Shown here piece after piece: positions 9,531 through 33,088 of a stretch of DNA of 47,435 bases. The stretch comes from Pseudomonadota bacterium (lineage in GTDB: Bacteria > Pseudomonadota > Gammaproteobacteria > Steroidobacterales > SZUA-146): contig JBCCHD010000030.1 in assembly GCA_039028935.1 (NCBI GenBank), positions 1 through 47,435 on the forward strand. Reading direction: 5' to 3'. The translations under genes and the position numbers were made by a program. Each line of letters starts with the position of its first letter. The first letter of the stretch is position 1. Under the pieces are notes generated by a model. It made no database searches. It saw only the letters and a program-made list of their open reading frames with translations, and had not been told where the DNA came from.

Positions 9531-12500
9531 ATGAGTTCGAATGTATGGGCGAGCGCGGCTCGCTGGGTACGCGTGGCATCAGGTCTTTTAGTCGCCATGA
9601 TCGCGTTGAGTGCACCGTCAGTGATGGCGCAAACCGAAACACTGACCTACGCCGGCGAGGTGGATGATGCAACTGGCGCATTCGTCGCACTGACGCCAGT
9701 CGGGACGATCGTCGGTGGTCCGATAGTGGTGGATGAAGCCGCCTTGCTCGCCGGTTCGATTGGTATTGCTGATATTGTTTCGATCGACGTAAATGTGGGT
9801 GGTTTTTGTTTTGCTACCGGCATGGGCGATTGTGGAGGCGTTGGCACGCTAGTCCCGATCACGTCAATCGATGCGGCCGCGATAACGGGCTCAGCGGGTA
9901 CCTTGGCCGGCAACTTCACCGTGACGGCATTTTCTCCGACCTTCATGGTCTCTATTCCCATTTCCTTTGATTTGGATGCGGCCTCCTTTTCGGCAGATGG
10001 CGGTGCGTTGGGCACGGTAGGCGGTTTTGGCTCGCTGACATCACCGCTGGCCGCGGCACCTGAAATCGACACCACGCCAGCAGCCGGCGCCGCGGCGATT
10101 GATTTTGGCGATGTCGCGACGGGTTCAGGCGCGCAAGCGCAAACCATCATGGTGAGTAACACCGGCACCGGACCGCTGACGATTTCGTCGGTCACGACCA
10201 CCGGTGCGCCGGGTGATCTGGTTGTAACGAACACCTGTGATGCAGCGCCGATTGCGGCGGGTGGAATGTGTGAGGTCACAGCAACCCTGACGCCCACAAT
10301 CGAAGCGGCGATCAGTGCGAACATTTCCATTGCGTCGGATGACGCGGATGAGTCCGTGCTCGATTTTGGCGTGTTGGCTAATGTGGTTGCACCGGCTGCA
10401 CTGAGCTCCGATGCACCAATCGGCATGGCGCTCATGATCGACTCGGTGGCCGTGGGTGGTACGACAACCGGCGTTGTCACCGTCACCAACACGGGCGGAC
10501 TGGCGGCGACGTTGGGCACAGCGACCATGCCCGGCGCACCGTTTGCGCTAACCGCCCAAGACCTCTGTTCGGGTCAGGTGCTTGCGCCGGCCGGCATGTG
10601 CACGATCGAGGTTGAGTTCTCACCGACTGCGTCTGGCGCCTTTGACAGCACGTTTTCAATCGACCTGGCGACACCGGGAGCGGGCACCAATGCCGACATC
10701 GCCGTCATGTCCTCAACGCTCGATCCGGCGGTTATGGCCTCGGCTGACCCGATCCTGATTGGCGACACCATCGTGGGCGACACCAACACTGAAGTGCTCA
10801 CATTGACGAATACGGGTGACGCGGACTTACTGGTTAGCGCGGTGACCGGATTGGCGGCGCCGTTTTCGGTAGCAGCCGATACCTGCACTGGAACGCCGGT
10901 GGCGCCGATGGCCATGTGCATGATCACCATTGAATTTGCGCCGACGGTTGAGGCGGCCGTGATGGACATCATCGAAATCGCCAGTAATGATCCGGCGTCA
11001 CCACTGAACATAGACGTTTCGGCAAACGGCACCGCGATGCTGTTGCCAAACATAAACGTCGCGCCATTGGCGATCGATTTCGCACCCGCAGTGCTGCTGG
11101 GAACAAGCGAGACCGAAACGGTGACCGTGAGTAATCTGGGTACCGCTGATCTCAACATTACGAGCATCACGGTATCGGCCGGGTCCGCGGATTTCACGAT
11201 CATGAATAACTGTGGTGCGATGCTCGCCACGGCGGCGTCTTGCACGGTTGATGTGACCTATACGCCGTCGGCAGCGGGCAATGCCATGGCTACACTGTCG
11301 ATTGTGTCTGACGATCCTGATACGCCGACGGCCGATGTGGCATTGAGCGGTAGTGGTGTGGCGCCAGCACCTGAAATTGACGTATCCGCCACCGCGTTGA
11401 TGTTCGGTTCCATTCTCGCCAATGCAACCGCAACGTTGGATCTCACAGTGAGTAATACCGGTACGGCTGATTTGGTAATCAGCGGTGTCACGATTGGTGG
11501 TGCCGATTCCGGCGTCTTTGCGCAAACCAATGACTGTGCCACAGTGACTGCGGGCGGCAATTGCGTGGTGTCGGTCACCTTTGATCCGATGATGGTGATC
11601 GATGCGACTGCAACTCTGACCATCGCGTCCAACGATGCGGATGAAGCCATGCTGGATGTGGCGCTCACAGGTATGGCGACACCGGTTCCGGAGCCAATGA
11701 TCGTCGTACCCGCGGGTCTGGATATTGGTGGGGTCAATGCCGGAACAACGGGCACGGGTACGATCACTGTTGAGAATATGGGCACGGCCGATCTGGTCAT
11801 TTCCAGTGTGATGCTCAACGGCACGAGTACCGATTTTGCCCAAACCAATGCGTGTGGCACGGTCGCGCCGAGTGCGACGTGTGACATCGAATTAACGTTT
11901 ACGCCCGCCACACCCGGTGCGGCGACGATCGATGTAGTGATTGATTCCAATGATGCGGATAATCCAACCAGCACGGTACCGGTGACGGCCGAAGCACTGA
12001 TTGCGGTGGCTCAAATCAGTAATACGGCGTTCAACTTTGGCAGCGTACGAATCGGTGAGACCGGCACCAATACGGTGATGATCACCAATGCTGGCAATAT
12101 CGACTTGATGGTGACCGGGGCGACCTTGGGCGGTACGGATGCGGCGAGTTACTCGTTGGCCAATGCCTGCGCGACGTTGGCCGCCGGCGCGTCATGCACC
12201 ATCGATATCACCTACACGCCAGCAGCGGAGGGGGCAAGCATGGCCACACTGACGATCACAACTTCTGACTTGGCGTTGCCGACCGCGGATGTCGCGTTGA
12301 GTGCGGCCGGTGCACCGCGCGAACCGGTGGTGGTGACGGTGTCGACCGAAGGCGGTAGCGGTGGTGTCGGTAGCTTGGGCTGGTTGAGTCTGGCCGGCGT
12401 GCTGCTGGCCGTGGCGCGGCGTTTGCGCCTAGGCGCGTTAATGCTGGCGCTCGGCCTGAGTGCTGCGGCGATGGCGGATGACCATGATGCGTCCTACTGG

Positions 12501-13073
12501 TACGCCGGGGTCGCCTTTGGTGGTGCGGACGGTCAAGCTGATGTGGCGGCCATCCGCAGCGGTATTGAGGAAGCGGTGAATGTCGAGTCGATCGACATTG
12601 GTGATGATGACACAGGGTTTAAAGGCTTTGTGGGTTTTCAGGCTACCGAGCACTTAGGCGTTGAGCTGGGTTACGTCGATCTGGGCGAAGCGGATATCGA
12701 TTTGCAACTGGGTGATGTAACGCTAGAAACGTTGCCGCTCATTTCGCGTACGGTGTCGGGCAACCTGTCGTTGCTCGGTAGTGGCGTGTTTGGCTCGGTC
12801 GTTGCACGCCAGTCAATTGGTGAGCACCTAGGTGTGATGGCGCGGGTGGGGCTCATCAGCTGGGAAGTGGAAACGACCATTGGCGGGTCCACCAGCACTG
12901 GCGCATTGAATATCGAAGAGGTGGAGTCCGGTACAGACTTTACGTTCGGCATCGGTGTTGAAGGGTGGTTTGGTGAGAATAAGCGGTTCGGCGTTCGCGG
13001 CGAATGGGAGCGCTTTGAACTCGGCGAACAAGACGCCGAATTTCTCTCCTTAGGTATCCTGTACCGATTCTGA
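9531..13073 (+). CDS. Giant secreted protein: paralogous head, 7 choice-of-anchor D repeats, CTERM tag, beta-barrel
   Basis: A 1180-residue protein in five parts. (1) A signal peptide, probably cut after VMA (33). (2) A head module (about 37-165), 106 of 129 residues identical to the small protein at 15865. (3) Seven Ig-like repeats of about 105 residues (177-930) of the choice-of-anchor D / ASPM-SPD2-Hydin type, most with a conserved Cys pair (N/D-x-C ... C-x-[IV]). (4) GGSGG (941-945), a hydrophobic stretch (949-962) and RRLR (963-966), which looks like a GlyGly-CTERM rhombosortase-type signal. (5) In frame, GALMLALGLSAAAMA (968-982), which resembles a second signal peptide cut before Asp983, then a barrel of about 198 residues ending YRF, like OmpA-type outer-membrane proteins. 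No stop or frameshift separates the parts. The role is probably surface display or adhesion. A GTG at 12411 could start the barrel part as a separate protein. Confidence 0.85.
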   Translation: MSSNVWASAARWVRVASGLLVAMIALSAPSVMAQTETLTYAGEVDDATGAFVALTPVGTIVGGPIVVDEAALLAGSIGIADIVSIDVNVGGFCFATGMGDCGGVGTLVPITSIDAAAITGSAGTLAGNFTVTAFSPTFMVSIPISFDLDAASFSADGGALGTVGGFGSLTSPLAAAPEIDTTPAAGAAAIDFGDVATGSGAQAQTIMVSNTGTGPLTISSVTTTGAPGDLVVTNTCDAAPIAAGGMCEVTATLTPTIEAAISANISIASDDADESVLDFGVLANVVAPAALSSDAPIGMALMIDSVAVGGTTTGVVTVTNTGGLAATLGTATMPGAPFALTAQDLCSGQVLAPAGMCTIEVEFSPTASGAFDSTFSIDLATPGAGTNADIAVMSSTLDPAVMASADPILIGDTIVGDTNTEVLTLTNTGDADLLVSAVTGLAAPFSVAADTCTGTPVAPMAMCMITIEFAPTVEAAVMDIIEIASNDPASPLNIDVSANGTAMLLPNINVAPLAIDFAPAVLLGTSETETVTVSNLGTADLNITSITVSAGSADFTIMNNCGAMLATAASCTVDVTYTPSAAGNAMATLSIVSDDPDTPTADVALSGSGVAPAPEIDVSATALMFGSILANATATLDLTVSNTGTADLVISGVTIGGADSGVFAQTNDCATVTAGGNCVVSVTFDPMMVIDATATLTIASNDADEAMLDVALTGMATPVPEPMIVVPAGLDIGGVNAGTTGTGTITVENMGTADLVISSVMLNGTSTDFAQTNACGTVAPSATCDIELTFTPATPGAATIDVVIDSNDADNPTSTVPVTAEALIAVAQISNTAFNFGSVRIGETGTNTVMITNAGNIDLMVTGATLGGTDAASYSLANACATLAAGASCTIDITYTPAAEGASMATLTITTSDLALPTADVALSAAGAPREPVVVTVSTEGGSGGVGSLGWLSLAGVLLAVARRLRLGALMLALGLSAAAMADDHDASYWYAGVAFGGADGQADVAAIRSGIEEAVNVESIDIGDDDTGFKGFVGFQATEHLGVELGYVDLGEADIDLQLGDVTLETLPLISRTVSGNLSLLGSGVFGSVVARQSIGEHLGVMARVGLISWEVETTIGGSTSTGALNIEEVESGTDFTFGIGVEGWFGENKRFGVRGEWERFELGEQDAEFLSLGILYRF
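10059..12320 (+). repeat. Seven tandem choice-of-anchor D Ig-like repeats in coding DNA
   Basis: Seven units of 100-115 residues, beginning about PEIDTTPA, ALSSDAP, VMASADP, PNINVAP, PEIDVSA, PEPMIVV and AQISNTA. Each has the core pattern F-G-x-V ... T-V-x-x-x-N-x-G-x-x-x-L, then a Cys about 25 residues on, A-x-x-x-C, F-x-P, and I-x-S-x-D. The units have diverged at the DNA level, so this is an old expansion and not a recent tandem duplication. Confidence 0.8.
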
Positions 13074-13130: not shown

Positions 13131-13259
13131 GCTCGACACTGACCGCTCGGGCGTTGCTTGTGAACTGCCGCCGTTTTCCAGCGCGTATCAGGCCCCTCAC
13201 CGTGCCGTTTTCGGCCGTACCCATTCGCTGCTGAATTGTACGTAGCTATCGGAGTGACT

Positions 13260-15575
13260 ATGACTAACCGCTTATTTTCCCCTGCTGGTGTCTCGTGTGT
13301 TGCCGTTGTCTGTGCCGTATCATTAGGCGCGGGAGATGTGCAGGCGCAAACATTGGAAGAAGTGTTTGTAACCGCACAAAAGCGAACCGAATCGTTGGAG
13401 GATGTGCCAATTTCGATTACTGCAATCGCGGGCGACGAGATTGCGCGCAATGGGATCGGTAATGTCGATGCACTGCAGGCACGCATTCCCAACTTCAATA
13501 TGTCGACTGCCGCCGTGTCGACTGAAATCTATATTCGCGGTGTCGGCAGTGGTGCGAACGATGGATTCGAACAATCGGTCGGCATGTTTGTCGATGGAGT
13601 GTTCGGCGGACGCGGTCGACAGTTTCGCGCGCCGTTTCTTGATCTTGAGCGATTGGAAGTGCTGCGCGGGCCGCAAGGTGTGCTCTTGGGTAAAAACACG
13701 ATCGCTGGGGCAGTCAATATCGCCACTGCCAAACCCACTTCAGAGTTTACCGGTTCGCTATCCGCGTCCTACGATGACCGGCTAGAAGAGGGGACCGCCA
13801 CGCTGGTCTTGTCTGGACCGTTTTCGGATAGCACCCGGGGTCGCATGGCCGTTACCGGGTTAAAAAGCGAAGGGTATTTGTTTAATACGGTCGACCAGCA
13901 GCCCGAGATGCAGCGTGAGGAATTTACGGCGCGGGGCATTATCGAACATGACTTCAGTGACGCGGTCACGGCGCGTCTCAAGTACGAATCGGGTTCATTT
14001 GACACCGATGGGAGTCGTTTTGTTATTAACGATGTGGGGCCGTTTGAAGACGTCTTTGTCTCCTTCGACGAGAACTTTACCCAAGACCGCTATCGCTCTT
14101 CAAAAGGTGGGCTTGGTGGTGAGGATGAGTTTGATGAAACCACTACCACTAACGCAGCGCTCACGGTTGATTGGGAGTGGGAGAACCACACCTTTACCTC
14201 GGTAACCGGTTATTCCAATTTTGAGTTTCGTCGCTTGCTCGATTCGGACTTCTCGGCGATTCCGCTGATTATTACTGAAACGATCCCCGAGATTTTCGAA
14301 CAGGTCTCTCAGGAATTTCGGTTGAGCTCCGATCCGGGTAACCGCATTGACTATATTCTGGGGCTGTACTGGCAAACCAATCGACTCGATACGCTTCGAG
14401 AAACCAGTATCGATGGTGACACGCTTGCCGCCTTGCTCTTAGGGCCGCTGAATAATCCGCTCGGTGCGGCCGCCACACGCACCACCGGCAAAACCTTTCA
14501 AAAATTTGAACAAAAAGCCGACAGCTTTGCCGCGTTCGCTCAGCTAACCTGGAATATCACCGATCGGTTTCGTACCACTGCGGGCGTTCGTTATTCTGAG
14601 GAGGATAAGTCGGCGCTGCAATTCGTTCGGCTCGAGACGTTAGATGGTCAATTAAATACCGACCCGCTGAGTATTCAACTTACTGAACTCTTTTTCGGGT
14701 TTACCAACCATCGGTTTGAAGGTGAACGTTCGGAGTCGGATGTGTCGCCATCCGTCAATGTGCAGTTTGATTTTAATGACGACATCATGCTCTACGGCAC
14801 CTGGGCACGCGGGTTTAAAGCCGGTGGATTCAATGCGCAGGAGCGCGGCGACGACATTGCGCTGTTCGAGTTTGAAGAAGAGCAGGCGACAACCATCGAG
14901 GCGGGTCTAAAAGGGCGGTTTCTCAATGGCGCGGCGCGACTCAATGTTAATTTTTTCCGATCGGTCTATGACGACTTGCAGGTGAGCTCGTTCAATGGGG
15001 TCACGTTTATCGTGGGCAACGCGGCCGAATCCGAATCGACCGGCGTCGAAATTGACGGCGCCTGGGCGTTAAGCGAACACGTCGAGATCGGCGCAGCGGT
15101 GGCCACGCTGGACGCGACTTACACGTCGTTTCCAAACGGTCCGTGTTTTGCGGGCGACGAGCGACCCGAGTGCACCGATATCAGTTCTTTGGGCGCCCGC
15201 GATTTATCGGGCGAGCGTGTGGGCTATGATCCGGAGTTTTCAGGGAACGTCTATCTGCGTGGACGGGTTGAACTCAACAATGACTATCTGGTTACGTACG
15301 GGGCTGATTGGACGTTTACGGATGGGTTTTTCTACAACGCGGATCTTGATCCGGCGGACTTTCAAGAGCCATTCGGCTTGTTTGATGTGCGTTTGGGTTA
15401 CGGTCCTGCTAATGGCCGATGGGAAATAGCGATAGTGGGGCAAAACTTGACCGAAGAGCTGACCAATGGCAGTTACGGTTCGGACATCCCCTTGCTGACG
15501 GGCGCACACTTCAGTGCTTCGATCCCGCCGCGGCGAGTGGCGCTTCAATGGAACTGGCGATTCGGGTCGCTTTGA
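13260..15575 (+). CDS. TonB-dependent outer-membrane receptor
   Basis: A 771-residue receptor. The signal peptide is probably cut after VQA (29). A TonB-box-like EEVFVTAQKR (33-42) follows, then the plug domain (about 45-160) with IYIRGVGSG, SVGMFVDGVF, LERLEVLRGPQGVLLGKNTIAGAVNI and related motifs. The 22-strand barrel runs from about 165 to the end and closes with RRVALQWNWRF. Energised by TonB-ExbBD, such receptors import siderophores, cobalamin, glycans or other large ligands. The sequence does not reveal the ligand, and no transporter or catabolic genes are adjacent. The subfamily resembles the many generic receptors of marine gammaproteobacteria. GGAG five bases before ATG 13260 fixes the start; an in-frame GTG upstream is less likely. 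It lies between two genes for proteins that share a module, so a common ligand-handling role is possible but unproven. Confidence 0.92.
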   Translation: MTNRLFSPAGVSCVAVVCAVSLGAGDVQAQTLEEVFVTAQKRTESLEDVPISITAIAGDEIARNGIGNVDALQARIPNFNMSTAAVSTEIYIRGVGSGANDGFEQSVGMFVDGVFGGRGRQFRAPFLDLERLEVLRGPQGVLLGKNTIAGAVNIATAKPTSEFTGSLSASYDDRLEEGTATLVLSGPFSDSTRGRMAVTGLKSEGYLFNTVDQQPEMQREEFTARGIIEHDFSDAVTARLKYESGSFDTDGSRFVINDVGPFEDVFVSFDENFTQDRYRSSKGGLGGEDEFDETTTTNAALTVDWEWENHTFTSVTGYSNFEFRRLLDSDFSAIPLIITETIPEIFEQVSQEFRLSSDPGNRIDYILGLYWQTNRLDTLRETSIDGDTLAALLLGPLNNPLGAAATRTTGKTFQKFEQKADSFAAFAQLTWNITDRFRTTAGVRYSEEDKSALQFVRLETLDGQLNTDPLSIQLTELFFGFTNHRFEGERSESDVSPSVNVQFDFNDDIMLYGTWARGFKAGGFNAQERGDDIALFEFEEEQATTIEAGLKGRFLNGAARLNVNFFRSVYDDLQVSSFNGVTFIVGNAAESESTGVEIDGAWALSEHVEIGAAVATLDATYTSFPNGPCFAGDERPECTDISSLGARDLSGERVGYDPEFSGNVYLRGRVELNNDYLVTYGADWTFTDGFFYNADLDPADFQEPFGLFDVRLGYGPANGRWEIAIVGQNLTEELTNGSYGSDIPLLTGAHFSASIPPRRVALQWNWRFGSL

Positions 15576-15864: not shown

Positions 15865-16425
15865 ATGTTTAAGAAAACACTCTCTGCACTGTTTGTTGCT
15901 CTGGTGGCCTCTGTGTCACTCGGCGCTCAAGCAGCTACTTTGACAATCACAGGCGAAGTGACCACTGCGGGTGGCGCGTTTGTTGCTCTGACGCCAATCG
16001 GCACACCAGTTGGTGGTCCGATCGTCGTTGACGACACGGCCCTTGCGTCTGGTTCAATCGGCATTGCTGACATCATCTCAATCGATGTCAATGTTGGTGG
16101 TTTCTGCTTCGCAACCGGCGCTGGCGACTGTGGCGGCATGGGCACCATTGTGCCAATCACGTCGATCGACAGCGCAGCCATTACTGGCAGCAGCGGTACG
16201 CTGGGTGGTTCGTTCTCAGTAACGGCCTTCTCACCGACCTTCATGGTTTCGATTCCAATCGTGTTTGACCTGGACGCCGGCACCTTCTCTGCTGATGGTG
16301 GCGCTCTGGGTACCGTTGGCGGTACCGTTTCGGTAGAAGCCCCTGCACCCGTTCCAGTGCCAGCAGCTGTTTGGCTGTTCGGTTCTGCTTTGCTCGGCCT
16401 GATGGGTATCCGTCGCCGCGCCTAA
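15865..16425 (+). CDS. Small secreted protein with VPLPA/PEP-CTERM-type sorting signal
   Basis: A 186-residue protein. The signal peptide (MFKKTLSALFVALVASVSLG) is probably cut after AQA (23). The mature part is one module (about 24-155), Gly/Ala/Thr-rich, with a Cys pair in GGFCFATGAGDCGG, predicted to be beta-rich. The C-terminus is VPVPAAVWLFGSALLGLMG followed by IRRRA (163-186): a VPxPA motif, a hydrophobic helix and a basic tail, as in exosortase-processed VPLPA-CTERM proteins. The module is 82% identical (106/129) to the head of the giant protein at 9531. Codons are of the kind seen in highly expressed genes: TTC, ATC and GAC preferred, and only GGT or GGC for Gly. A strong terminator follows. 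It is probably an abundant surface or extracellular-matrix protein. No exosortase gene is in the window. The biochemical function is unknown. Confidence 0.85.
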   Translation: MFKKTLSALFVALVASVSLGAQAATLTITGEVTTAGGAFVALTPIGTPVGGPIVVDDTALASGSIGIADIISIDVNVGGFCFATGAGDCGGMGTIVPITSIDSAAITGSSGTLGGSFSVTAFSPTFMVSIPIVFDLDAGTFSADGGALGTVGGTVSVEAPAPVPVPAAVWLFGSALLGLMGIRRRA

Positions 16426-16558: not shown

Positions 16559-16924
16559 GGAGTCAGCCAGGCAGTCGCGGCGAACGTATGCTGAATGCGG
16601 TCGTCGAGGAAAGTCCGGGCTCCATAGGGCAAGGTGCCAGGTAACGCCTGGGAGGCGCGAGCCTACGGAAAGTGCCACAGAAAACATACCGCCTAAGCAC
16701 GCTGTGCCGGTAAGGGTGAAATGGTGTCGGTAAGAGCGCACCGCGCCGATGGCAACATCGACGGCAGGGTAAACCCCACCTGGAGCAAGACCAAATAGGA
16801 AAGCGGCGGCTTCGGCTGCGATCGTGGCCCACGATGCTTTCGGGTAGGTTGCTTGAGCATACTGGCGACGGTGTGCCTAGATGAATGGCTGTCCACGACA
16901 GAACCCGGCTTATCGGCTGACTCC
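16559..16924 (+). ncRNA. rnpB: RNase P RNA component (M1-type, class A)
   Basis: The catalytic RNA that matures tRNA 5' ends. The termini pair: GGAGTCAGCC (16559-16568) with GGCTGACTCC (16915-16924). Inside are the universally conserved blocks GAGGAAAGTCCGGGCTCC (16607-16624), AGGGTGAAA, GGTAAGAGCGCACCGC, GGTAAACCCCACC, AGCAAGACCAAATAGG and the 3' block CTAGATGAATGGCTGTCCACGACAGAACCCGGCTTATCGG (positions 16878-16916; only partly needed for recognition). Order and spacing match E. coli M1 RNA. A T5 run (16925-16929) directly after the terminal stem serves as terminator. It is on the same strand as the downstream dcw cluster, a common gammaproteobacterial placement between rsmI and mraZ. Boundaries are inferred from the terminal pairing and should be accurate to a few bases. 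Confidence 0.97.
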
Positions 16925-16929
16925 TTTTT

Positions 16930-17493: not shown

Positions 17494-17949
17494 ATGTTTC
17501 GTGGAGCAACCAAAGTCACCCTCGACGCGAAGGGCCGCATGGCCATTCCGACGCGCTATCGGCCGTCTATTCAAGACGGCTGCGAGGGGCGTTTGGTTGT
17601 CACAGTCGATCGGGACTACTGCCTGTTGCTGTATCCGCTGCCTGTGTGGGAAGAGCTCGAGCGACGCCTGGTCAAACTGCCCAGCCTCAAACGAAAGGCG
17701 CGCAATCTTCAGCGACTGATGTTGGGTTACGCCACGGATGTTGAGCTGGATGGGCAAAGTCGAATCCTGGTGTCAAAAGAACTGCGCGAAGTAGCGAGCA
17801 TCTCTCGCGTTGCCATGATGGTGGGTCAGGGTAACAAGTTTGAACTGTGGGATGAAGGGCTTTGGACCGCACGCCGTGATCAGTGGCTTGAGGACAGTCA
17901 GGATGACGATGCGGAGCTGCCTGAAGAACTGGCGACGTTGTCTCTCTAG
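17494..17949 (+). CDS. mraZ: Transcriptional regulator MraZ
   Basis: A 151-residue protein with two SpoVT/AbrB-like repeats. Each carries the family D-x-x-x-R signature: LDAKGRMAIPTRYR (about 10-23) and LDGQSRILVSKELR (about 84-97). MraZ forms a ring-shaped oligomer that binds the TGGGN repeats upstream of its own gene and represses the dcw operon. Four of those boxes lie 27-60 bp upstream of this ATG, so autoregulation is strongly suggested. It is the first gene of the cluster; the rsmH start follows the mraZ stop by 4 bp. Length is close to E. coli MraZ (152). The acidic C-terminal tail (DSQDDDAELPEELATLSL) is unremarkable. Confidence 0.97.
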   Translation: MFRGATKVTLDAKGRMAIPTRYRPSIQDGCEGRLVVTVDRDYCLLLYPLPVWEELERRLVKLPSLKRKARNLQRLMLGYATDVELDGQSRILVSKELREVASISRVAMMVGQGNKFELWDEGLWTARRDQWLEDSQDDDAELPEELATLSL

Positions 17950-17953
17950 TCTC

Positions 17954-18883
17954 GTGGATCATCACGCTCCCGTCTTGCTTTCCCAGTGCCTGGATGGGCT
18001 GGCGATAAAGAGCAGTGGCGTGTATGCCGACGGCACGTTTGGCCGGGGTGGCCACAGCGGAGCCATTTTAAAGCGACTCGATAGCGGTGGGCAGCTTATC
18101 GCGATCGACCGGGATGAAACGGCCATCGAATACGGTCGCGCACATTTTAAACAGTACAAACAGCTGACGCTGGTGAAACGCCCGTTCAGCGATTTGGGAG
18201 AGGTGATTGCCGAGTATTCGGCCTCCGGTATGGCGGATGGTGTGTTGCTCGATCTGGGTGTGTCGTCACCGCAGCTGGACAACCCTGAGCGCGGCTTCAG
18301 TTTTAGGCAAGACGGTCCGCTCGATATGCGTATGGATAGCACCACGGGTCAAAGCGCAGCGCACTGGTTGGCGTCGGCGGACGAAAAGGAAATTAAGTCA
18401 GTGATTAAAACCTTCGGGGAAGAGCGTCAAGCGCATCGCATTGCGCGAGCGATTGTGAAGCGACGCGCGACGGGCCCCATCACGCGGACACTCGAACTTG
18501 CCGAGTGTATAGAGGCGGCGGTGCCGCGCCGCTACGAACAACGGATTCATCCCGCAACAAAATCGTTTCAGGGTATTCGTATTTTTATAAATGACGAGTT
18601 GGGTCAGCTTAAGAAAGTACTGCACGACATGTTATCCGCGTTGTCGATCGGTGGGCGCTTAGCCGTGTTGAGCTTTCACTCATTAGAAGATCGCATGGTA
18701 AAGCGCTTTATGCGTGATCAATCACGTAGCGACATTATGTACTCGGGTTTGGATCAGGTGCCCGATGAGGCGCGCGCCAAACTTCGACTAATCGGCAAGC
18801 AAGTTCGAGCGGATGAAAAAGAAACCGCAGGCAACCCGCGTGCGCGCAGTGCCGTGCTACGTGTTGCGGAGCGCATTTTTTGA
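17954..18883 (+). CDS. rsmH: 16S rRNA (cytosine1402-N4)-methyltransferase RsmH (MraW)
   Basis: A 309-residue SAM-dependent methyltransferase that N4-methylates C1402, the same nucleotide that the upstream RsmI 2'-O-methylates. It begins VDHHAPVLLSQCLDGL, the conserved N-terminus. It has DGTFGRGGHS (SAM motif I, about 30-39), IAIDRD, LDLGVSSPQLDNPERGFSFRQDGPLDMRMD and the C-terminal FHSLEDRMVKRFM. I chose the GTG at 17954 because it gives the standard N-terminus 4 bp after the mraZ stop; the open frame runs further upstream inside mraZ, without homology. The stop overlaps the ftsL start (TGATG), so translation is coupled. Confidence 0.96.
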   Translation: MDHHAPVLLSQCLDGLAIKSSGVYADGTFGRGGHSGAILKRLDSGGQLIAIDRDETAIEYGRAHFKQYKQLTLVKRPFSDLGEVIAEYSASGMADGVLLDLGVSSPQLDNPERGFSFRQDGPLDMRMDSTTGQSAAHWLASADEKEIKSVIKTFGEERQAHRIARAIVKRRATGPITRTLELAECIEAAVPRRYEQRIHPATKSFQGIRIFINDELGQLKKVLHDMLSALSIGGRLAVLSFHSLEDRMVKRFMRDQSRSDIMYSGLDQVPDEARAKLRLIGKQVRADEKETAGNPRARSAVLRVAERIF

Positions 18884-19155
18884 TGGCGCGCTGGATGATG
18901 ATGTCGCTGATTCCGTTGCTGGCACTGGCGGTGTTGGCCACCGGCATCGGCTGTGTGTATGTGCGCCATGAGGCGCGCAAGTTATTTGTTGAGTTGCAGG
19001 AGCTCGAAGCAGAGCGCGATCGACTACAGATTGAATGGGGTAAGTTGCGCATCGAGCAAGGCACTTGGGCATCCCATGGTCGCGTTGAAAACATGGCGCG
19101 AAGCGAACTCAATATGGTTGAGCCCAAACCTGATTCGGTGATGGCGATTCGGTAG
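18883..19155 (+). CDS. ftsL: Cell division protein FtsL
   Basis: A 90-residue bitopic membrane protein. A very short cytoplasmic end (MARWMM) is followed by a transmembrane helix (about 7-27, SLIPLLALAVLATGIGCVYV) and a periplasmic leucine-zipper-like coiled coil (about 28-65, LFVELQELEAERDRLQIEW). The tail has the family pattern ARSELNMVEPKPDSV. FtsL joins FtsB and FtsQ in the complex that activates FtsWI at the septum. Sequence conservation in this family is low; position between rsmH and ftsI, size and topology decide the call. The ATG overlaps the rsmH stop by one base. Confidence 0.93.
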   Translation: MARWMMMSLIPLLALAVLATGIGCVYVRHEARKLFVELQELEAERDRLQIEWGKLRIEQGTWASHGRVENMARSELNMVEPKPDSVMAIR

Positions 19156-19159
19156 TACC

Positions 19160-20908
19160 GTGAGTAAAAAACAACACGCAAAATCGATTTATTCTCCATG
19201 GCGTGAATCCTTCACGTTACTGGTGTTCGCGCTGATGGCTGTATCGCTCATTGGTCGGGCGGTGTATCTGCAGGTCATCGCTAAAGACAAACTTGTGGGA
19301 CAAGGGGACGCACGGCATTTGCGCATTGCGAAATTGTCCGCCCATCGCGGCACGATCTACGATCGTCACGGCGAACCACTGGCGGTGAGTACACCGGTTG
19401 ATTCCATTTGGGCCAATCCGCAGGAATTTGCAGAGAAAGTCGATCAGATCGACGCCCTAGCGGCCGCGGTTAATCGCGATTCGCAGTGGCTGTTGCGTCG
19501 AATCACGCAAAACATGCACCGCGAATTCGTCTATCTGCGCCGGCACATGCCACCGGTCGAAGCGAGCGCGGTGCTCGATCTTGGCTTGCCGGGCATTTAC
19601 ACGTTACGCGAATATCGTCGCTACTATCCTGCGGGCGAAGTTGCCGGTCATCTGATCGGCTTTACCGATGTGGATGATCAGGGGCTTGAAGGCATCGAAC
19701 TCGCTTTTGATGCATGGCTGCGAGGCGAGTCCGGCGCCAAACGCGTGATGAAAGACCGGCTCGGGCAAATTATCGCGAATGTGGAGAGTATTCGTGCGCC
19801 TGAGCCCGGCAAAGACCTGGTTACGTCGATCGATCTGAATATTCAATATCTGGCGTACCGTGAGTTGATGCGTGCAGTCCGGCGTCATGATGCGAAATCA
19901 GGGTCGGTGGTCGTGGTCGATATTCCGACCGGCGAGGTGCTCGCGATGGTGAATCAGCCCGGTTACAACCCCAACGACCGAAACCAATTTAATGCGTCGC
20001 GATATCGAAACCGGGCCGCAACCGATATTTTTGAGCCTGGGTCCAGTCTCAAGCCATTCATCGCGGCGGCCGCACTCGAATCGGGGCAGTATTCGCCCGC
20101 GTCGCCGATCGCGACAGCACCAGGTTATATGAAGGTTGAGCAGCTTTTAGTCGAGGATGTCGCCAATTTCGGTGATCTTGATTTAACCGGCGTGCTCACC
20201 AAGTCGAGCAATGTCGGTGTTGTCAAAGTGGCGATGAGCATGGAAGCAGAGCAGCTTTGGCAAACGCTGTCCCGTCTGGGTATTGGCGAGCTCACGACGA
20301 GTGGCTTTCCAGGCGAGTCCGCGGGTCTGCTGACTAGTTTCCAACACTGGGGGTCGATTACACAAGCGACCCTCGCATTCGGTTACGGCGTGTCTGTCAC
20401 GCCGCTTCAGCTGGCACAAGCGTACGCCACGCTCGGATCGGGTGGTGTCCATCGTCCCGTGTCGTTCGTTGTGCGTGAAAACGACAGTCTTGATCGGCGC
20501 GTGATGGACGCCAGCATCGCGGCGCAGGTGATCGAGATGCTCGAAACGGTGACGCAAGAGGGTGGCACCGGTACGTTGGCGGCTGTCAATGGCTATCGGG
20601 TTGCAGGGAAAACCGGAACGACCAAGAAATTCACCGCTGGTGGTTATGCGGACGGTCAGTACGTGTCGGTGTTTGCGGGGATTGCCCCAGCCAGTGCGCC
20701 ACGCTTTGCGGTGGTGGTGGTGATCGAAGAGCCGAACGCTGGCGATTACTACGGGGGTGATGTCGCCGCCCCGGTGTTTGCTAACGTTATGAGTAATTCG
20801 TTGCGCTTGTTGTCGGTCGTGCCCGACACGGACGATCCAGCGCAGCAACGGCAGCTGGTGCACGAGCGATTCAATCGTCATAACGGTATTCAGGCGGACG
20901 CGCAATGA
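19160..20908 (+). CDS. ftsI: Peptidoglycan DD-transpeptidase FtsI (PBP3)
   Basis: A 582-residue class B penicillin-binding protein. A basic N-terminus precedes one transmembrane helix (about 18-40). The pedestal domain starts with KLSAHRGTIYDRHGEPLAVS (58-77). The transpeptidase domain has all three catalytic motifs: SSLK with nucleophile Ser295 and Lys298, SSN (349-351) and KTGT (484-487). FtsI crosslinks septal peptidoglycan in complex with FtsW and is the target of aztreonam-type beta-lactams. The start is a GTG at 19160, 5 bp after the ftsL stop, giving MSKKQHAKS. Length matches E. coli FtsI (588). The last codon overlaps murE by an ATGA junction. Confidence 0.97.
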   Translation: MSKKQHAKSIYSPWRESFTLLVFALMAVSLIGRAVYLQVIAKDKLVGQGDARHLRIAKLSAHRGTIYDRHGEPLAVSTPVDSIWANPQEFAEKVDQIDALAAAVNRDSQWLLRRITQNMHREFVYLRRHMPPVEASAVLDLGLPGIYTLREYRRYYPAGEVAGHLIGFTDVDDQGLEGIELAFDAWLRGESGAKRVMKDRLGQIIANVESIRAPEPGKDLVTSIDLNIQYLAYRELMRAVRRHDAKSGSVVVVDIPTGEVLAMVNQPGYNPNDRNQFNASRYRNRAATDIFEPGSSLKPFIAAAALESGQYSPASPIATAPGYMKVEQLLVEDVANFGDLDLTGVLTKSSNVGVVKVAMSMEAEQLWQTLSRLGIGELTTSGFPGESAGLLTSFQHWGSITQATLAFGYGVSVTPLQLAQAYATLGSGGVHRPVSFVVRENDSLDRRVMDASIAAQVIEMLETVTQEGGTGTLAAVNGYRVAGKTGTTKKFTAGGYADGQYVSVFAGIAPASAPRFAVVVVIEEPNAGDYYGGDVAAPVFANVMSNSLRLLSVVPDTDDPAQQRQLVHERFNRHNGIQADAQ

Positions 20909-22419
20909 CCGCGACCATCGAAACCTGGCATCGAAGTTTGGCGCAGTTGCTCGAGGGTATCGTTGACCAGGTGCCAGAGTGCGCCATCGAATTTGTCACA
21001 TTAGACAGTCGCCAAGTTAAACCGGGTAGTCTATTTCTGGCAACGAGCGGGATCCGTCGGCACGGCCTTGAATTCGCTCAGCAGGCTTTCGCTAACGGCG
21101 CAGCGGCCGTTCTCTACGAGCCAGTAAAAGGGATCGTGCCGCCGACGGCGCCCCCGGGCAAGGTGGTGCTGCCAATCCATCATTTGAGCGCGCATATCGG
21201 CGCGATCGCGTCTCGGTTTTTTGATGAGCCGTCGATCGATCTCAATATCTGTGGTGTGACCGGAACCAACGGTAAATCCAGTGTCACACATTTGGTTGCG
21301 TCCGCGCTGCGCCTGTGTGGACAGCGTTGCGGGCAGATGGGCACGCTTGGGTTTGGGTTGACCGATCCGCTCACGTCGAGTGAGTTTACTACGCCTGACG
21401 CGGTGTCGGTGCAGCAACGCTTGGGATGGCTCCGCGAACAACGGGCATCGCATGTGGCGATGGAAGTGTCCTCGCACGCGCTGGACCAGCATCGCGTGAA
21501 CGCGGTGGGTTTTGACGTCGCGGTGTTCACGAATCTGAGTCGTGACCATCTGGACTATCACGCTGACCTCGCTGAGTATGCCGCCGCCAAAAAACGCCTC
21601 TTCGAACAATTTCCAATTACGCGTGCGGTAATCAACATTGATGACGCGTATGGTCGCGAGCTGCACGCGTTTGTGCGGGAGTTCAGTCCGGTCACAGTAA
21701 TCACGAACGATTCGGCGCAAGCGGCGGAATTTGACGAGGTATTGGTGGCAGGCAATATTCAGACTCAAGTGCACGGCCTCGCTTTTGATGTCGCCGGTAG
21801 TTTTGGGCAAGGTCGGGTCGAATCGAGTCTGCTGGGTCGATTTAACGCGGCGAATATTTTGTCTGCGTTGGGCGTTTTGCTTCATTGGCAGATTCCCTTT
21901 GACCAAGCGCTTGCGGCGCTGTCGCGCGTGAAAGCGCCTGCCGGACGAATGGAGTCGTTTGGGCGGGATAGCGATGCTCAGTTTGTGGTGGACTATGCGC
22001 ACACGCCTGATGCGCTCGATAACGCCCTTCGCGCACTGCGACCGCATTGTGAGGGTCGACTATGGTGTGTGTTTGGCTGTGGTGGGGATCGCGATCGAGG
22101 CAAACGTCCGTTGATGGCCAGAGCCGCCGAAATGGCCGATCAGGTGATCGTCACCAATGACAATCCGCGTTATGAAGACCCCGAGACCATAATCGAAGAG
22201 ATCATGGTTGGTTTTACGTCTCATGAGAACGTGCATGTTGAGCCCGATCGGGCACGGGCTATTACGCGAGCGGTCGACAATGCACGAACCGGCGATATTG
22301 TGTTAATTGCCGGCAAGGGGCACGAGAGTTATCAAGTGGTCGGCAGCGACCGACTCGAGTTTTGTGATCGCAAACTGATCAGCGAGCTGCTCCAGCGCTC
22401 GGGGGTGCCCCATGAGTAA
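20905..22419 (+). CDS. murE: UDP-MurNAc-L-Ala-D-Glu:meso-diaminopimelate ligase MurE
   Basis: A 504-residue Mur ligase that adds the third residue of the stem peptide in the cytoplasm using ATP. The P-loop is TGTNGKSS (119-126); a Lys of AAKKRLF (229/230) is the probable carbamylated residue. TNDNPRYEDP (417-426) contains the DNPR signature of enzymes that use meso-diaminopimelate, as opposed to lysine, so the cell wall should be DAP-type as in other Gram-negatives. The ATG overlaps the ftsI stop (ATGA), and the C-terminus overlaps murF by 8 bp. Slightly longer than the E. coli enzyme (495). Confidence 0.97.
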   Translation: MTATIETWHRSLAQLLEGIVDQVPECAIEFVTLDSRQVKPGSLFLATSGIRRHGLEFAQQAFANGAAAVLYEPVKGIVPPTAPPGKVVLPIHHLSAHIGAIASRFFDEPSIDLNICGVTGTNGKSSVTHLVASALRLCGQRCGQMGTLGFGLTDPLTSSEFTTPDAVSVQQRLGWLREQRASHVAMEVSSHALDQHRVNAVGFDVAVFTNLSRDHLDYHADLAEYAAAKKRLFEQFPITRAVINIDDAYGRELHAFVREFSPVTVITNDSAQAAEFDEVLVAGNIQTQVHGLAFDVAGSFGQGRVESSLLGRFNAANILSALGVLLHWQIPFDQALAALSRVKAPAGRMESFGRDSDAQFVVDYAHTPDALDNALRALRPHCEGRLWCVFGCGGDRDRGKRPLMARAAEMADQVIVTNDNPRYEDPETIIEEIMVGFTSHENVHVEPDRARAITRAVDNARTGDIVLIAGKGHESYQVVGSDRLEFCDRKLISELLQRSGVPHE

Positions 22420-23809
22420 TGGTCGCATGAGTGAGTTTGCGCAAATCACTGAAGGGATGCTGAAGGGAGAAGACTGCATCTTTACCGGAGTCTCGACCGA
22501 CACGCGCTCGCTAAAAGGCAATGACCTGTTTATCGCGCTTAAAGGCCCGACATTCGATGGTCATGAATTCTTAACCCAAGCCCAAAAGTTAGGTGCGTCT
22601 GGGTTTGTGGTGAGTCAAGATGGGTGTGAGCATGTTCCACATGTTCGCGTAGAGGATACGCGCAAGGCACTCGGCGCGTTCGCGGCTGCGTGGCGTCAAC
22701 GTTTCTCAATACCTGTTGCTGCGATCACCGGTAGCAATGGTAAGACGTCGACCAAGGAGATGTTGGCCGCCATTCTAAGTGTTCGCCACGCGACTCACGC
22801 GACCAGCGGCAATATGAATAATGATATTGGCGTGCCGTTAACGCTGCTCGCATTGAAACGCAGTCATCAGGCGGCGGTCATTGAAATTGGAACCAATGCG
22901 CCGGGTGAGATCGGCTATCTGACCAACTTGGTGACGCCTACGGTGGGCGTTATTACGAACGCGTACTCGGCGCATCTAGCCGGACTGGGCACACTCGAGG
23001 GCGTGGCCGAAGAAAAAGGTGCGCTCCTCGCCGGGTTGTCCGCCGACGCGACGGCGGTTATAAATGCCGACGACCGTTTTGCCGAACAGTGGCGGGACCG
23101 CACGTCCGCTGAAACCGTGCTCACGTTTGGTGAACATGAAGACGCCGATTTCCGATTCAGTGATCTCAATCAGTCCGTTGATCAAGAGCGGGCGAGATTG
23201 GAGTTCACATTGCATACGCCGATTGGTCAGCGACCGGTGACCTTGCCACTCGCCGGTAAGCACAATGCGCGCAATGCCGCGGCAGCGGCTGCCGTCGCCT
23301 TCGCTATGGGTGCCACGCTCGATGAGATACAGGCTGGGCTCGCGGCAGCTAATGGTGTCGCCGGACGCATGCAAATCCAGATGGCACGGTGTGGGGCGCG
23401 CATAATCGATGACAGTTACAACTCCAATCCTGCCTCAGCTCGTGCCGCCATTCGTTTCCTTACCGAACAAAAAGAACCTGGATGGTTGGTGCTTGGCGAG
23501 ATGGGTGAGCTGGGCAGTAATGCGCCCGACATGCACGCCAGTATCGGCAAGCTCGCTTATGAGCTCGGCGTGGAGCGACTGTTCGCGGTCGGATCGCATA
23601 GCCGTGCCGCGGTGGCTGCGTTTGGTAAAGGAGCGCTTTGGTTTGAAACGGTTGAGGAGCTTGAGCGGGCGCTGAACCGAGAGTTACGGCTTGGTGTGAA
23701 CGTGCTTATCAAAGCCTCACGCGCAATGCGCCTCGAACGACTCACCGACGCACTGTGTCGCCCACCCGAATCACTCACGTCCTCATCAAGCGGAGCAGGC
23801 GCATGCTGA
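22412..23809 (+). CDS. murF: UDP-MurNAc-tripeptide:D-Ala-D-Ala ligase MurF
   Basis: A 465-residue Mur ligase that attaches D-Ala-D-Ala and completes the pentapeptide. It has [18 protein letters not shown] in the N-terminal substrate domain (about 26-43), the ATP-binding loop [11 protein letters not shown] (106-116), [10 protein letters not shown], and [12 protein letters not shown] in the C-terminal part. The start at 22412 overlaps the murE stop; an in-frame ATG five codons later is possible, but GGGGG lies suitably upstream of the first. It overlaps mraY by 7 bp. The partner ligase Ddl, which makes D-Ala-D-Ala, is encoded downstream in the same cluster. Confidence 0.96.
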
Positions 23810-24888
23810 TTATTCTCGCGGAATATCTCGAGCAGTATTACTCCGGCTTCAATGTGTTTGGCTATCAGACGATGCGTGCCATTCTGGGGGCGCTGACCGC
23901 GTTATTAATGTCTTTCATTGTTGGGCCCATGATGATACGTCGGCTGAGTGCGTATCAGATCGGCCAGAATGTGCGTGATGACGGGCCTGAGACGCACTTT
24001 GTGAAAGCCGGCACACCGACGATGGGTGGGGCGTTGATTTTAGTGTCGATTGCGGTGAGCACGCTGTTGTGGTCCAACCTCAGTAATCGCTATGTATGGA
24101 TCGTTCTTTTTGCCACGCTTTCATTCGGTCTGATCGGATTTGTTGATGACTATAAAAAGTTGGTTCTGAAAAACTCGAAAGGTCTGAGCGCCCGAGCAAA
24201 GCTGATCAGCCAGACACTGGCCGCGACGGTCACAGCCTATTGGCTCTATGCGACAGCTGTTAACCCCGCCGTAGAGCTGGCGCTGCACGTGCCCTTTTTC
24301 AAAGACGTTATGGTGCCGCTGGGCATATTTTATATCGCTACCACCATTTTTATGATTGTGGCCTTTAGCAACGCAGTGAATCTCACCGATGGTCTCGATG
24401 GGCTAGCCATTATGCCGACGGTGATGGTAGGCGCGGCGCTCGGAATCTTTGCTTACGCGTCAGGCAATGTGAATTTTTCCAATTACTTGAGTATCCCGTA
24501 CATTGCGGGCTCGGGTGAAATGCTGATCTTTTGCGCCGCACTTGGCGGCGCGGGTCTGGGGTTTTTGTGGTTCAACACCTACCCCGCTCAGGTGTTCATG
24601 GGGGACGTCGGTGCGTTGGCGCTCGGTGCTGCCTTGAGCGTTGTGGCGGTAGTGGTTCGTCAAGAGCTGGTGCTCGCCATTATGGGTGGCGTGTTTGTGA
24701 TGGAAACGGTGTCGGTGGTGCTCCAAGTGGTGTCCTACAAGTTAACCGGCAAGCGTCTGTTCAGAATGGCCCCCATACACCACCACTACGAATTAAAAGG
24801 TTGGGCCGAACCCAAGGTGATCGTGCGCTTTTGGATTATTACCGTAATCCTGGTGTTGGTCGGTTTGGCAACGCTCAAATTGCGATAG
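23803..24888 (+). CDS. mraY: Phospho-MurNAc-pentapeptide translocase MraY
   Basis: A 361-residue polytopic membrane enzyme, about ten transmembrane helices, that transfers phospho-MurNAc-pentapeptide to undecaprenyl phosphate to make lipid I. Hallmarks are GTPTMGG (about 65-71), GFVDDYKK with the Asp pair (about 115-122), [16 protein letters not shown] (about 189-204), MGDVGAL, and the cytoplasmic histidine cluster PIHHHYE near the C-terminus. I chose the ATG at 23803 because it gives MLIILAEYL, the family N-terminus; an earlier in-frame start would lie inside murF. Length equals that of E. coli MraY (360) within one residue. Confidence 0.97.
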
Positions 24889-24896
24889 AGAACTCA

Positions 24897-26327
24897 ATGA
24901 CGGTCGATAACGCTTATCAGGACACCACGCAACGCGGCGTGGATTTAGTCGTTGGCCTGGGTGCCAGCGGTTACTCCTGTGCGCGATTTTTGACGCGTCA
25001 AGGTCGCGAGATTCGTGTGCTCGATAGCCGACTCGAACCGCCGTATGCGACGCGTCTGCGCGAGACGCTGCCGGATGTCGACGTGGCGTTTGGCGAGTTT
25101 GATGACGCCTCTTTGTCGGACGTGGGCCGAGTGATCACCTCGCCAGGTATTCCATCCAGTGTGCCGTTGCTGCAGCGCGCGTTTGAGCAAGGCTTAGAGG
25201 TGATCAGCGATATAGAGCTGTTTGCACAAGCGGCTCCGGCACACGTCGTAGGCATTACCGGTTCGAATGGCAAAAGCACCGTGACCAGTTGGATTGCGCA
25301 TGTATTGAACGAAGCTGGATTCGATTGTCTGTGCGGCGGCAATCTTGGCGTGCCGGCTTTGGATCTACTCGATAACGAAATACCCGACTACTACGTGCTT
25401 GAACTCTCCAGTTTTCAGCTTGAGCGCACGCATACTCTGCATTTAAAAGCAGCAGCGATACTCAATATTGGTGTTGATCACATTGATCATCATGGCGACC
25501 TTGAGTCATATCAAAATGCGAAGTGGCGCATTCTTGATCATTGCGAAACAGCGGTGCTCTATGCGCCACTTGCTCAGAGTGCGCATTTTAGTGGCGTACA
25601 GGCACACGTACCCAATGTGGTGTTATACGGCGCCGATGCTGCTGGCGAACTCGTGGGCAACGAATCGAACGCAGCGCAATGGACTTGGCACTTGAGCTGG
25701 TCGGCTGCGCAGGCAGATGGGCAGCCGGGTCAAGGGTGGCTGTGCCGAGAAGGCCAGCGCTTGCTGCCCACTTCGGTGCTGAAGGTAATGGGACGTCACA
25801 ACCATCTCAACGCGCTAGCGGTCTTGGCGTTGGCCGAGTGCTGCGGGCTCGAGTTTACGCAGATCGTTGAAGGCATGACTTCGTTTGCGGGTCTCGATCA
25901 TCGGATGCAGTGGGTGGGCGAAAGTCGGGGTGTGACCTGGATCAATGACTCGAAAGGCACCAACAGTGATGCGACGATCGCCGCGCTCAGTGCGCTGGAT
26001 GGTGGTGTCGTGCTTATTGCGGGTGGGCAAGCGAAGGGAGACGATTTTTCGCGGTTGGCGGACGCGCTCGTCGCCCAGCCACAAGTGAGCGCGGTGATAT
26101 TGATTGGTGCCGATGCGGATCGTATTGAGCGCGCCCTGAGCGAGCGAGAATACGCGCACAACATCGTGCATGCTGCGTCGATGGAAGAAGCGGTTAGCCA
26201 GGCCGCGCGCCACGCGCGTGAAGGTGACACGGTTCTGCTGTCTCCCGCGTGTGCGAGCTTCGATATGTTCGATAACTATGAGGCACGCGGTGAGGCTTTC
26301 ATGCAGGCATGGAGAGCGCTGATATGA
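24897..26327 (+). CDS. murD: UDP-MurNAc-L-Ala:D-glutamate ligase MurD
   Basis: A 476-residue Mur ligase that adds D-Glu. The N-terminal Rossmann-like domain starts VVGLGASGYSCARFL (about 18-32). The ATP loop is TGSNGKSTVTS (121-131), with ELSSFQLE and HRMQWVGE...WINDSKGTN following, and LLSPACASFDMFDNYEARG near the C-terminus. The ATG at 24897 is 8 bp after the mraY stop and gives the expected N-terminus. The frame is open further upstream, but only inside mraY in another frame. It is somewhat longer than E. coli MurD (438), the extra residues lying in the N-terminus and central domain. It ends in an ATGA overlap with ftsW. Confidence 0.96.
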   Translation: MTVDNAYQDTTQRGVDLVVGLGASGYSCARFLTRQGREIRVLDSRLEPPYATRLRETLPDVDVAFGEFDDASLSDVGRVITSPGIPSSVPLLQRAFEQGLEVISDIELFAQAAPAHVVGITGSNGKSTVTSWIAHVLNEAGFDCLCGGNLGVPALDLLDNEIPDYYVLELSSFQLERTHTLHLKAAAILNIGVDHIDHHGDLESYQNAKWRILDHCETAVLYAPLAQSAHFSGVQAHVPNVVLYGADAAGELVGNESNAAQWTWHLSWSAAQADGQPGQGWLCREGQRLLPTSVLKVMGRHNHLNALAVLALAECCGLEFTQIVEGMTSFAGLDHRMQWVGESRGVTWINDSKGTNSDATIAALSALDGGVVLIAGGQAKGDDFSRLADALVAQPQVSAVILIGADADRIERALSEREYAHNIVHAASMEEAVSQAARHAREGDTVLLSPACASFDMFDNYEARGEAFMQAWRALI

Positions 26328-27571: not shown

Positions 27572-28650
27572 GTCGCATTCTGGTCATGGCCGGTGGCACA
27601 GGCGGGCATATTTTTCCAGCTTTGGCGGTGGCCAAAAAGCTCCGTGGCTTGGGGTGCGAGGTGCGTTGGCTTGGCAGTCAGGGCGGCATGGAACAACGAC
27701 TCGTGGATAAAGCAGGCTTCGAGGGCGATTGGATTTCGGTCGCTGGCGTGCGAGGCAAAGGGTGGCGCACTAAGCTCTTGGCCCCATTTCGTCTGGTGGC
27801 CAGTGTTTGGCAGGCGCTACGAGTATTGCGTTTACGCCGACCGGATGCCGTGCTCGGTATGGGCGGTTTTGCGTCCGGCCCAGGCGGCCTTGCCGCATGG
27901 CTCACCCGGCGGCCGTTGATCATTCACGAGCAAAACGCCGTGGCGGGCACGACCAACAAAGTCCTGTCCCGACTTGCCGATAAAGTGTTTACGGCGTTTC
28001 CGCATGCGTTTGGAACGCGTGCACAAGCGGTTGTCGGTAATCCAGTGCGCGACGACATCATCGCGCTTCCAGTACCTGAGCAACGATTTGCCAAACGTGA
28101 GGGCGCATTGCGCGTGCTCGTACTGGGCGGTAGTCAGGGTGCGCTGGCGTTGAATGAGTATGTGCCTCGCGAACTGGCTGAGTGGGCCAAAACGCAGCCG
28201 ATAAGCGTGCTGCATCAGTCCGGCGAGCGCACGTTTTCAACCGCCCAAGATGCCTATGAAGGCGCGCGACTCACGGTCAATGTCGTGCCGTTCATAACGG
28301 ACATGGCCCAGGCGTACGGTTGGGCTGATTTGGCCGTGTGCCGTGCCGGTGCGCTGACGATCTCCGAACTCGCGGCGGCCGGGCTCGCGGCGGTGCTGGT
28401 GCCGTTTCCATTTGCCATAGACGATCATCAGACGCTTAATGCCGCGTATCTTGAACAAGTGGGTGCGGGGCGCATTCTCGCTGAGCGGGATTGTCAACCT
28501 GGTGCACTCGTGGCCATGCTCAAAGAAGTCGCGGACGATCGCGGGCGGCTTTTGGCCATGGCGACGGCGGCGCGTCACCAGCGCCAGCCCGACTCGGCGA
28601 ATGTGGTCGCCGTGTCGTGCGTGGAACTCGCTTCGGGAGTGGCGCTATGA
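27568..28650 (+). CDS. murG: UDP-GlcNAc:lipid I N-acetylglucosaminyltransferase MurG
   Basis: A 360-residue GT-B glycosyltransferase on the inner face of the membrane that converts lipid I to lipid II. The N-terminal glycine-rich loops are present ([16 protein letters not shown], about 6-21; [13 protein letters not shown], about 95-107), with [12 protein letters not shown] and GNPVR following. In the C-terminal domain, [49 protein letters not shown] binds UDP-GlcNAc (shown here only as recognisable segments). The ATG overlaps the ftsW stop (ATGA). Length matches E. coli MurG (355). The murC start overlaps its stop (ATGA). Confidence 0.97.
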
Positions 28651-33033: not shown

Positions 33034-33088
33034 GTTTGGTTTTTTAGCAATCGTAATTAGATAAATAGGAACTCACTAGGGGACAATC

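Follow-up and report, generated by a model that had tools for sequence, protein, structure and literature searches.

In the available passages of their paper, Guo, Haft and Wall (2025) describe MXAN_5598, a protein in which an adhesin region, an internal MYXO-CTERM signal, a barrel and OmpA domains follow one another; the authors suggest a fusion of two genes, propose processing of the N-terminal part and liken the protein to TraA/TraB (PMC11980579). The TraA and TraB genes overlap by four bases (PMC3325183), and TraB, with its signal peptide, barrel, TSP3 repeats and OmpA domain, has been modelled under TraA (PMC12045341), again according to the available passages. The GlyGly-CTERM signal is placed at the extreme C-terminus by Haft and Varghese (2011) in the accessible text (PMC3237569), and the title of a reference in PMC11980579 tells of an ArtA substrate whose sorting signal lies away from the C-terminus. 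Here we analyse a gene in a stretch of 47,435 nucleotides, called the window, on contig JBCCHD010000030.1 (positions 1-47,435) of the gammaproteobacterial assembly GCA_039028935.1. The gene carries a GlyGly-CTERM-like motif inside its frame, followed by a second signal-peptide-like segment and an outer-membrane barrel. Its fused frame is genuine and conserved. We consider it likely, judging from sequence, that the product is an envelope polyprotein which rhombosortase and signal peptidase I would cut into a surface-anchored protein and a barrel partner, one chain probably yielding two matched proteins.

The fused frame and its relatives

The gene occupies positions 9531-13073 of the forward strand, as do all of its features given below, and encodes 1180 residues in one continuous frame with an ATG start and zero internal stop codons. 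Re-reading the frame bore out the coordinates given in the initial annotation for GGSGG (from residue 941), the RRLR loop, the segment 968-982 and the barrel running to YRF. A signal peptide ending in VMA is predicted from the sequence at residues 1-33 (9531-9629), and sequence comparison delimits an N-terminal domain of about 160 residues (14-174; 9570-10052). VesB/HYDIN-like immunoglobulin (Ig; choice-of-anchor D) repeats occupy residues ~190-914 (10098-12272) and are matched by PF22544 (8e-73) and NF012200 (7.8e-120), each in seven stretches. The junction opens with GGSGGVGS (941-948; 12351-12374), an internal GlyGly-CTERM-like motif located with TIGR03501 and by alignment, which is the proposed rhombosortase site; GGSGG itself is residues 941-945 (12351-12365). 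A first hydrophobic helix follows (949-962; 12375-12416), seen in the hydropathy and as a low-confidence helix in the model, and then the RRLR loop (963-966; 12417-12428), predicted to be cytoplasmic. The second hydrophobic segment, GALMLALGLSAAAMA (968-982; 12432-12476), ends in AMA, a signal peptidase I-like site at which cleavage would occur. The RRLR loop would double as the tail of the CTERM signal and the n-region of the signal peptide. The barrel begins with Asp983 (codon at 12477) and ends with YRF at residue 1180 (12477-13073 with the stop codon). The motif is thus internal rather than at the extreme C-terminus, 214 residues following RRLR.

Pfam matched residues 970-1180 to OMP_b-brl (44 bits, cut-off 28.7) and residues 986-1144 to OmpA_membrane. 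AlphaFold2, run on the last 261 residues of the window protein with six relatives, gave two short helices (951-965 and 968-980) and then an eight-strand barrel, with a mean predicted local distance difference test score (pLDDT) of 68.5 and a predicted template modelling score of 0.61. The top PDB fold matches of the modelled barrel are OmpA, with autotransporter barrels lower in the list. The peptidoglycan-binding domain of OmpA is absent by Pfam from the window protein, which ends at YRF. Autotransporters (type V secretion) export a passenger by means of a C-terminal 12-strand translocator barrel; an assignment to this class was rejected, the barrel being of the eight-strand OmpA type rather than a 12-strand translocator.

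A search of the last 273 residues against 59 relatives revealed the same open join elsewhere. Profiles made from those relatives were then run on 396 genomes of the order and 369 genomes of the class; both searches scored the six or seven best candidates of each genome, and the fusion counts are lower bounds. Every listed match with an open frame of at least 590 residues was inspected, as were some shorter ones, and the set of fused proteins was defined by eye from the translated loci. By this inspection the join is present in at least 37 proteins from 34 genomes and 16 family codes, the window included, and one of the carriers (G047) is a single-contig genome. Five further loci with long frames (L080, L081, L083, L104 and L105) proved on inspection not to have this join, and the frame of L058 is lost near its end. 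Six fused places are labelled in public records, four as Woeseiaceae, one as Chromatiales and one as Gammaproteobacteria, all of them metagenome-assembled. The front parts vary and include choice-of-anchor D or U, DUF11, Calx-beta, divergent InlB B-repeat, and Big_1 with pro-kumamolisin; among those scanned, some match one library only (Pfam or NCBIfam) and L087 matches neither. Four genomes have an OmpA peptidoglycan-binding domain behind the barrel, detected by Pfam in L096 and L101 (genomes G666 and G702), as also in L130 (below), and by NCBIfam matches below their cut-offs in L097 and L099 (genomes G404 and G557).

Two places, L102 (G454:C124) and L103 (G549:C2), have the Gly motif and helix hairpin, then some 170 and 450 residues more, respectively, and then the barrel. 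By inspection they are polyproteins with an extra middle piece; they stand outside the 37, are labelled separate in the tree described below and are among the 84 genomes with a related barrel considered in the next section.

The window genome (G000) contains a second polyprotein, found by a GlyGly-CTERM search that located six places: at four of them the frame ends 1-8 residues further on, one is that of the window protein and one is internal to L130, a 3092-residue frame on the reverse strand (L130:6148-15423, equal to G000:C20:12147-21422). In L130 a front of about 2450 residues leads to the GlyGly motif (residue 2450), an Arg-containing loop and a second hydrophobic segment ending in AQA. 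Pfam places a barrel, TSP3 repeats and an OmpA domain after it, in the same order as in TraB. The motif scores 17.8 bits against TIGR03501, or 15.1 in a longer query (cut-off 15.5). L130 escaped the profile searches because its barrel resembles the profile of the other barrels only distantly (18 bits). We count it as a 38th fused protein, additional to the 37, and its recovery by the motif search shows that the barrel profiles undercount fusions. On the same strand, some 4 kb from L130, lies the gene of another protein with a GlyGly tail, L040.

Split forms occur as well. At three places, two in G030 and one in G052, a gene whose product has a GlyGly-type tail stands directly before a free-standing gene for a barrel of this family; the genes overlap by 1 or 4 bases or are 3 bases apart, and the ribosome-binding sites of the barrel genes are strong (duplex energies -7.9 to -11.6 kcal/mol). 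G030 holds a fused copy besides its two split pairs. The initial annotation had asked whether homologues come both fused and split, and they do (at least 37 fused proteins, three split pairs). A tree of 77 barrels needs eight changes between the fused and separate states, and the window barrel groups with no other fused barrel with support. The tree and this placement suggest repeated fusion, with only one change forced by well-supported branches. At six loci (L062, L063, L064, L066, L069 and L072) a related barrel gene directly follows a gene whose product has a VINVP-type tail. These products resemble ice-binding (DUF3494) proteins; the two genes are possibly another pair of surface protein and barrel.

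Junction signals and sorting enzymes

Across seven aligned modules the GxGS of the junction is invariant. Between the hydrophobic stretches, a script found a cluster of positive charge (net +2 to +4) in 36 of the 37 junctions; in the last, L074, the script picked another place, and ARR is visible in the sequence. The MYXO-CTERM model TIGR03901 gave 16.1 bits with the window protein, below its cut-off of 20, and the motif has no Cys. JDVT-CTERM was considered because D-V-T-like residues precede the Gly run in several relatives. As the signal of the window protein it was rejected: NF033191 is not listed up to E 10, and among 20 junctions only L100 passes. In L100 (L100:264-548, genome G572) an internal JDVT-CTERM (32.5 bits, cut-off 27) sits at the same place; after it come a signal-peptide-like segment and the beginning of a barrel, and the genome has MrtJ (98.7 bits, cut-off 75). 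MrtJ (NF033192) has no match in the window genome at E 1e-5. The NCBIfam family midcut-by-XrtH, by its name a sorting signal away from the C-terminus, was considered because NF033207 weakly matched L097, and was also rejected, with a match in 1 of 185 genomes and none in the window genome at E 1e-6.

The initial annotation proposed a cut by a rhombosortase-like enzyme, and a rhombosortase is present in all 34 genomes found to carry a fusion. In the window genome a single rhombosortase exceeds the family cut-off (143.5 bits, cut-off 84), and the type II secretin GspD is present as well (545 bits). In the class sample the enzyme occurs in 15 of 15 fused genomes versus 127 of 369 overall (nominal P 6e-8), and in 37 of the 84 further genomes that have a related barrel. 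With one genome per family, and with the window genome, G007 and the JDVT case removed, the count is 9 of 9 (nominal P 5e-5); the order sample gives 21 of 21 fused genomes, as read from the rows, versus 282 of 396. In G701 the rhombosortase gene lies 41 bases downstream of the fused gene on the same strand. Elsewhere, at L113 (G680:C3:143500-149500), a rhombosortase gene overlaps the end of a gene for a protein with a Gly-motif tail (recognised by eye, with no NCBIfam match), and a convergent OmpA-barrel gene adjoins the Gly-motif gene.

Proposed processing and its rivals

In the proposed scheme, Sec would export the N-terminal part of the chain until the first helix stops transfer, leaving the Arg loop in the cytoplasm as the whole cytoplasmic part, and the second helix would restart export as an internal signal peptide. 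Rhombosortase would cut at the Gly-rich motif, the new C-terminus would be lipidated by analogy with VesB, and the Ig-repeat protein would then reach the cell surface via type II secretion. Signal peptidase I would cut after AMA, allowing the eight-strand barrel to insert in the outer membrane. The products may then pair up, the barrel docking or anchoring the surface protein as TraB does for TraA. We favour this polyprotein scheme because the fusion is conserved, split pairs exist, rhombosortase co-occurs with the fusion and in one case adjoins it, and the window genome has both rhombosortase and GspD. In Bradyrhizobium the fbcH cytochrome b/c1 polyprotein is cut by signal peptidase, a precedent that our literature search did not retrieve. 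To our knowledge, bacterial polyproteins cut at two membrane sites into two differently sorted envelope proteins are rare.

Several observations weigh against the scheme. Both cuts, the lipidation, the topology and the pairing are steps that we infer. Against TIGR03501 (GlyGly_CTERM) the window motif reaches 15.2, 14.8 and 13.3 bits, just missing the cut-off of 15.5, and when 20 junctions were scanned with this model five passed, 11 including that of the window fell below, three gave no match and one was of the JDVT type. An [AVT]xA near the barrel, present in 36 of 37 junctions, is met in a mean of 32.2 when the Ala-rich tails are shuffled, and the two helices have low confidence in the AlphaFold2 model (pLDDT below 50). 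Related genomes are not independent, and the P values for rhombosortase overstate the association. G572 also has a rhombosortase, and MrtJ passes its cut-off also in G701, whose fusion is GlyGly-like, so that the JDVT/MrtJ parallel is suggestive rather than specific. A GlyGly-type gene lies upstream at just 3 of 34 distinct separate-barrel places (six more follow another kind of gene, and 25, including L071, a near relative of the split clade, show neither), and for most separate barrels nothing points to a GlyGly-type partner. Finally, an extreme C-terminal position may aid rhombosortase in choosing its substrates, according to the accessible text of Haft and Varghese (2011; PMC3237569).

The chain might remain uncut or be cut once, in which case the hairpin would stay in the inner membrane and the protein would span the envelope, or the N-terminal part would stay there. 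Such an outcome would fit a motif just under the GlyGly-CTERM cut-off, an AxA signal that is statistically weak and cuts that are inferred. The co-occurrence of rhombosortase and its one adjacency speak for cutting, as do the split pairs, in which each signal keeps its place at a true terminus, and a relative with MrtJ whose JDVT-CTERM occupies the same position; we regard an uncut or once-cut chain as unlikely, while giving it real weight. A sequencing or assembly error that removed a stop codon between two genes would be conceivable in a 91-contig assembly, with split pairs known in relatives. Against it, 36 further proteins from 33 further genomes, including a single-contig one, keep the join open, which excludes a lost stop codon and refutes such an error as a general account, and a second fused gene (L130) stands in the same genome; we leave this explanation next to no probability. 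The initial annotation had set two outcomes against its own reading, a lost stop codon and a barrel that is always a separate gene. The relatives counter the former, and the barrel is part of a fused protein in at least 37 cases.

Separate translation of the barrel from an internal start, for example the GTG at 12411-12413, would leave the long protein with an ordinary CTERM-like tail or as a minor product. Translation from this GTG gives MARRLRLGALMLALG, as the initial annotation stated. The start that it proposed there did not hold up: by duplex energy and shuffles the codon has no supporting ribosome-binding site, with -2.6 kcal/mol versus -6.5 for the ATG of the gene itself. In L085, L044 and L078 the best internal-start candidate reaches merely -0.4 to -1.7. 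Over the set as a whole, ribosome-binding-like sites are stronger in the intervals before the AxA site than in intervals of the front parts (median -5.4 versus -3.1, P 7e-7) and weaker than those at separate barrels (-5.4 versus -6.6, P 0.03), and split-form barrel genes do have ribosome-binding sites. Synonymous shuffling of the 37 junctions removes the apparent excess, with a total of -209.1 versus -200.4 ± 13.0 and 57 of 200 shuffles as low; it is the codons of the Gly-rich stretch that produce it. A separately made barrel would need no open frame through the loop, yet the frame is kept in 37 proteins. The sites of L086 (G701) and L068 (G114) beat about 99% of their own synonymous shuffles (0.01 each), and, judging by these junction sequences, the barrel may have a start of its own in both. 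An internal start, favoured by the raw comparison and not by the synonymous shuffle, was therefore rejected as a general account, with L068 and L086 as possible exceptions, and for the window gene we think it very improbable.

Should both cuts of the polyprotein scheme be real, a sorting signal regarded so far as a C-terminal tag also marks a place of cleavage inside a chain, and some natural substrates of rhombosortase are cut internally. Candidate outer-membrane partners of rhombosortase substrates can be read off from the fused proteins and the split pairs. The arrangement is easily missed in annotation because the family models used here label only its parts, such as choice-of-anchor repeats or an OmpA-like barrel.

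Genomic setting and comparison with known systems

The N-terminal domain of the window protein is 73% identical to a protein encoded at 15865-16425 of the window and to one on another contig of the genome (L003, G000:C28:46233-46715). One copy ends in a PEP-CTERM-like tail (sub-threshold) and the other in apparent TSP3/dockerin-type repeats (by eye), so that the domain has three different endings in this genome, which encodes two exosortases. Directly after the polyprotein gene, on the same strand, lies a TonB-dependent receptor-like gene (13236-15575, by eye). An RNase P RNA (16559-16928, Rfam) is followed by a division and cell-wall gene cluster from rsmH to ftsZ (17840-34237, named by eye), which begins about 5 kb after the polyprotein gene. 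MXAN_5598 is reported to lie inside a division-gene cluster; a link of this kind was rejected, as the flanks of L106, L108 and L110 contain no such genes (by eye).

With GlyGly-CTERM proteins processed by rhombosortase, such as VesB, the window protein shares the Gly-rich motif, the helix, the Arg cluster, VesB-like Ig domains before the motif and a rhombosortase in the genome; it differs in the internal position of the motif and in what comes after it, namely a second signal-peptide-like segment and a barrel. JDVT-CTERM, the signal paired with MrtJ, occupies the corresponding internal position in L100, whose genome encodes MrtJ, and is not the signal of the window protein. The ArtA and midcut-by-XrtH cases involve proteases other than rhombosortase, and we know of no barrel partner for internal signals of either type.

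The initial annotation knew of no described system with this arrangement. An internal CTERM signal with a barrel is in fact known from MXAN_5598 (PMC11980579), while for the rhombosortase version, an internal GlyGly-CTERM with a barrel, no published report was found in literature searched by listings and passages. According to the available passages, MXAN_5598 resembles the window protein in combining a large adhesin-like region, an internal CTERM signal and an outer-membrane barrel in one chain. It differs in relying on MYXO-CTERM and the glutamic protease MrtX, where the window protein has GlyGly and rhombosortase, and in having OmpA cell-wall domains, which the window protein lacks and L130 possesses. 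It is also one described protein, whereas here there is a conserved set. TraA/TraB, in the passages at hand, are 1:1 partners in which a CTERM-anchored surface protein is encoded just upstream of its barrel partner (PMC3325183, PMC12045341); they are two genes in Myxococcus, and the PA14/Cys-rich TraA is unlike the Ig repeats of the window protein. With its barrel-TSP3-OmpA order, L130 is a closer match to TraB than the window protein is. What TraAB and MXAN_5598 have in common, a CTERM-like signal followed by a signal peptide and barrel in the same chain or the next gene, is found here too.

It is possible, and we put it forward tentatively, that Gammaproteobacteria hold a widespread counterpart of TraAB, a lipid-anchored surface protein and a dedicated barrel made 1:1 from one polyprotein. 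The join would then have become adapted to two or more sorting proteases unrelated to one another (rhombosortase and MrtJ, with MrtX in Myxococcus as another), and the adhesin-barrel fusion would have arisen or been re-made repeatedly. This is likelier because L130, in the same genome, has the TraB-like order. The arrangement reported here is of the same kind as MXAN_5598/TraAB, with a rhombosortase-type signal, more breadth and a stronger enzyme linkage than the published single case.

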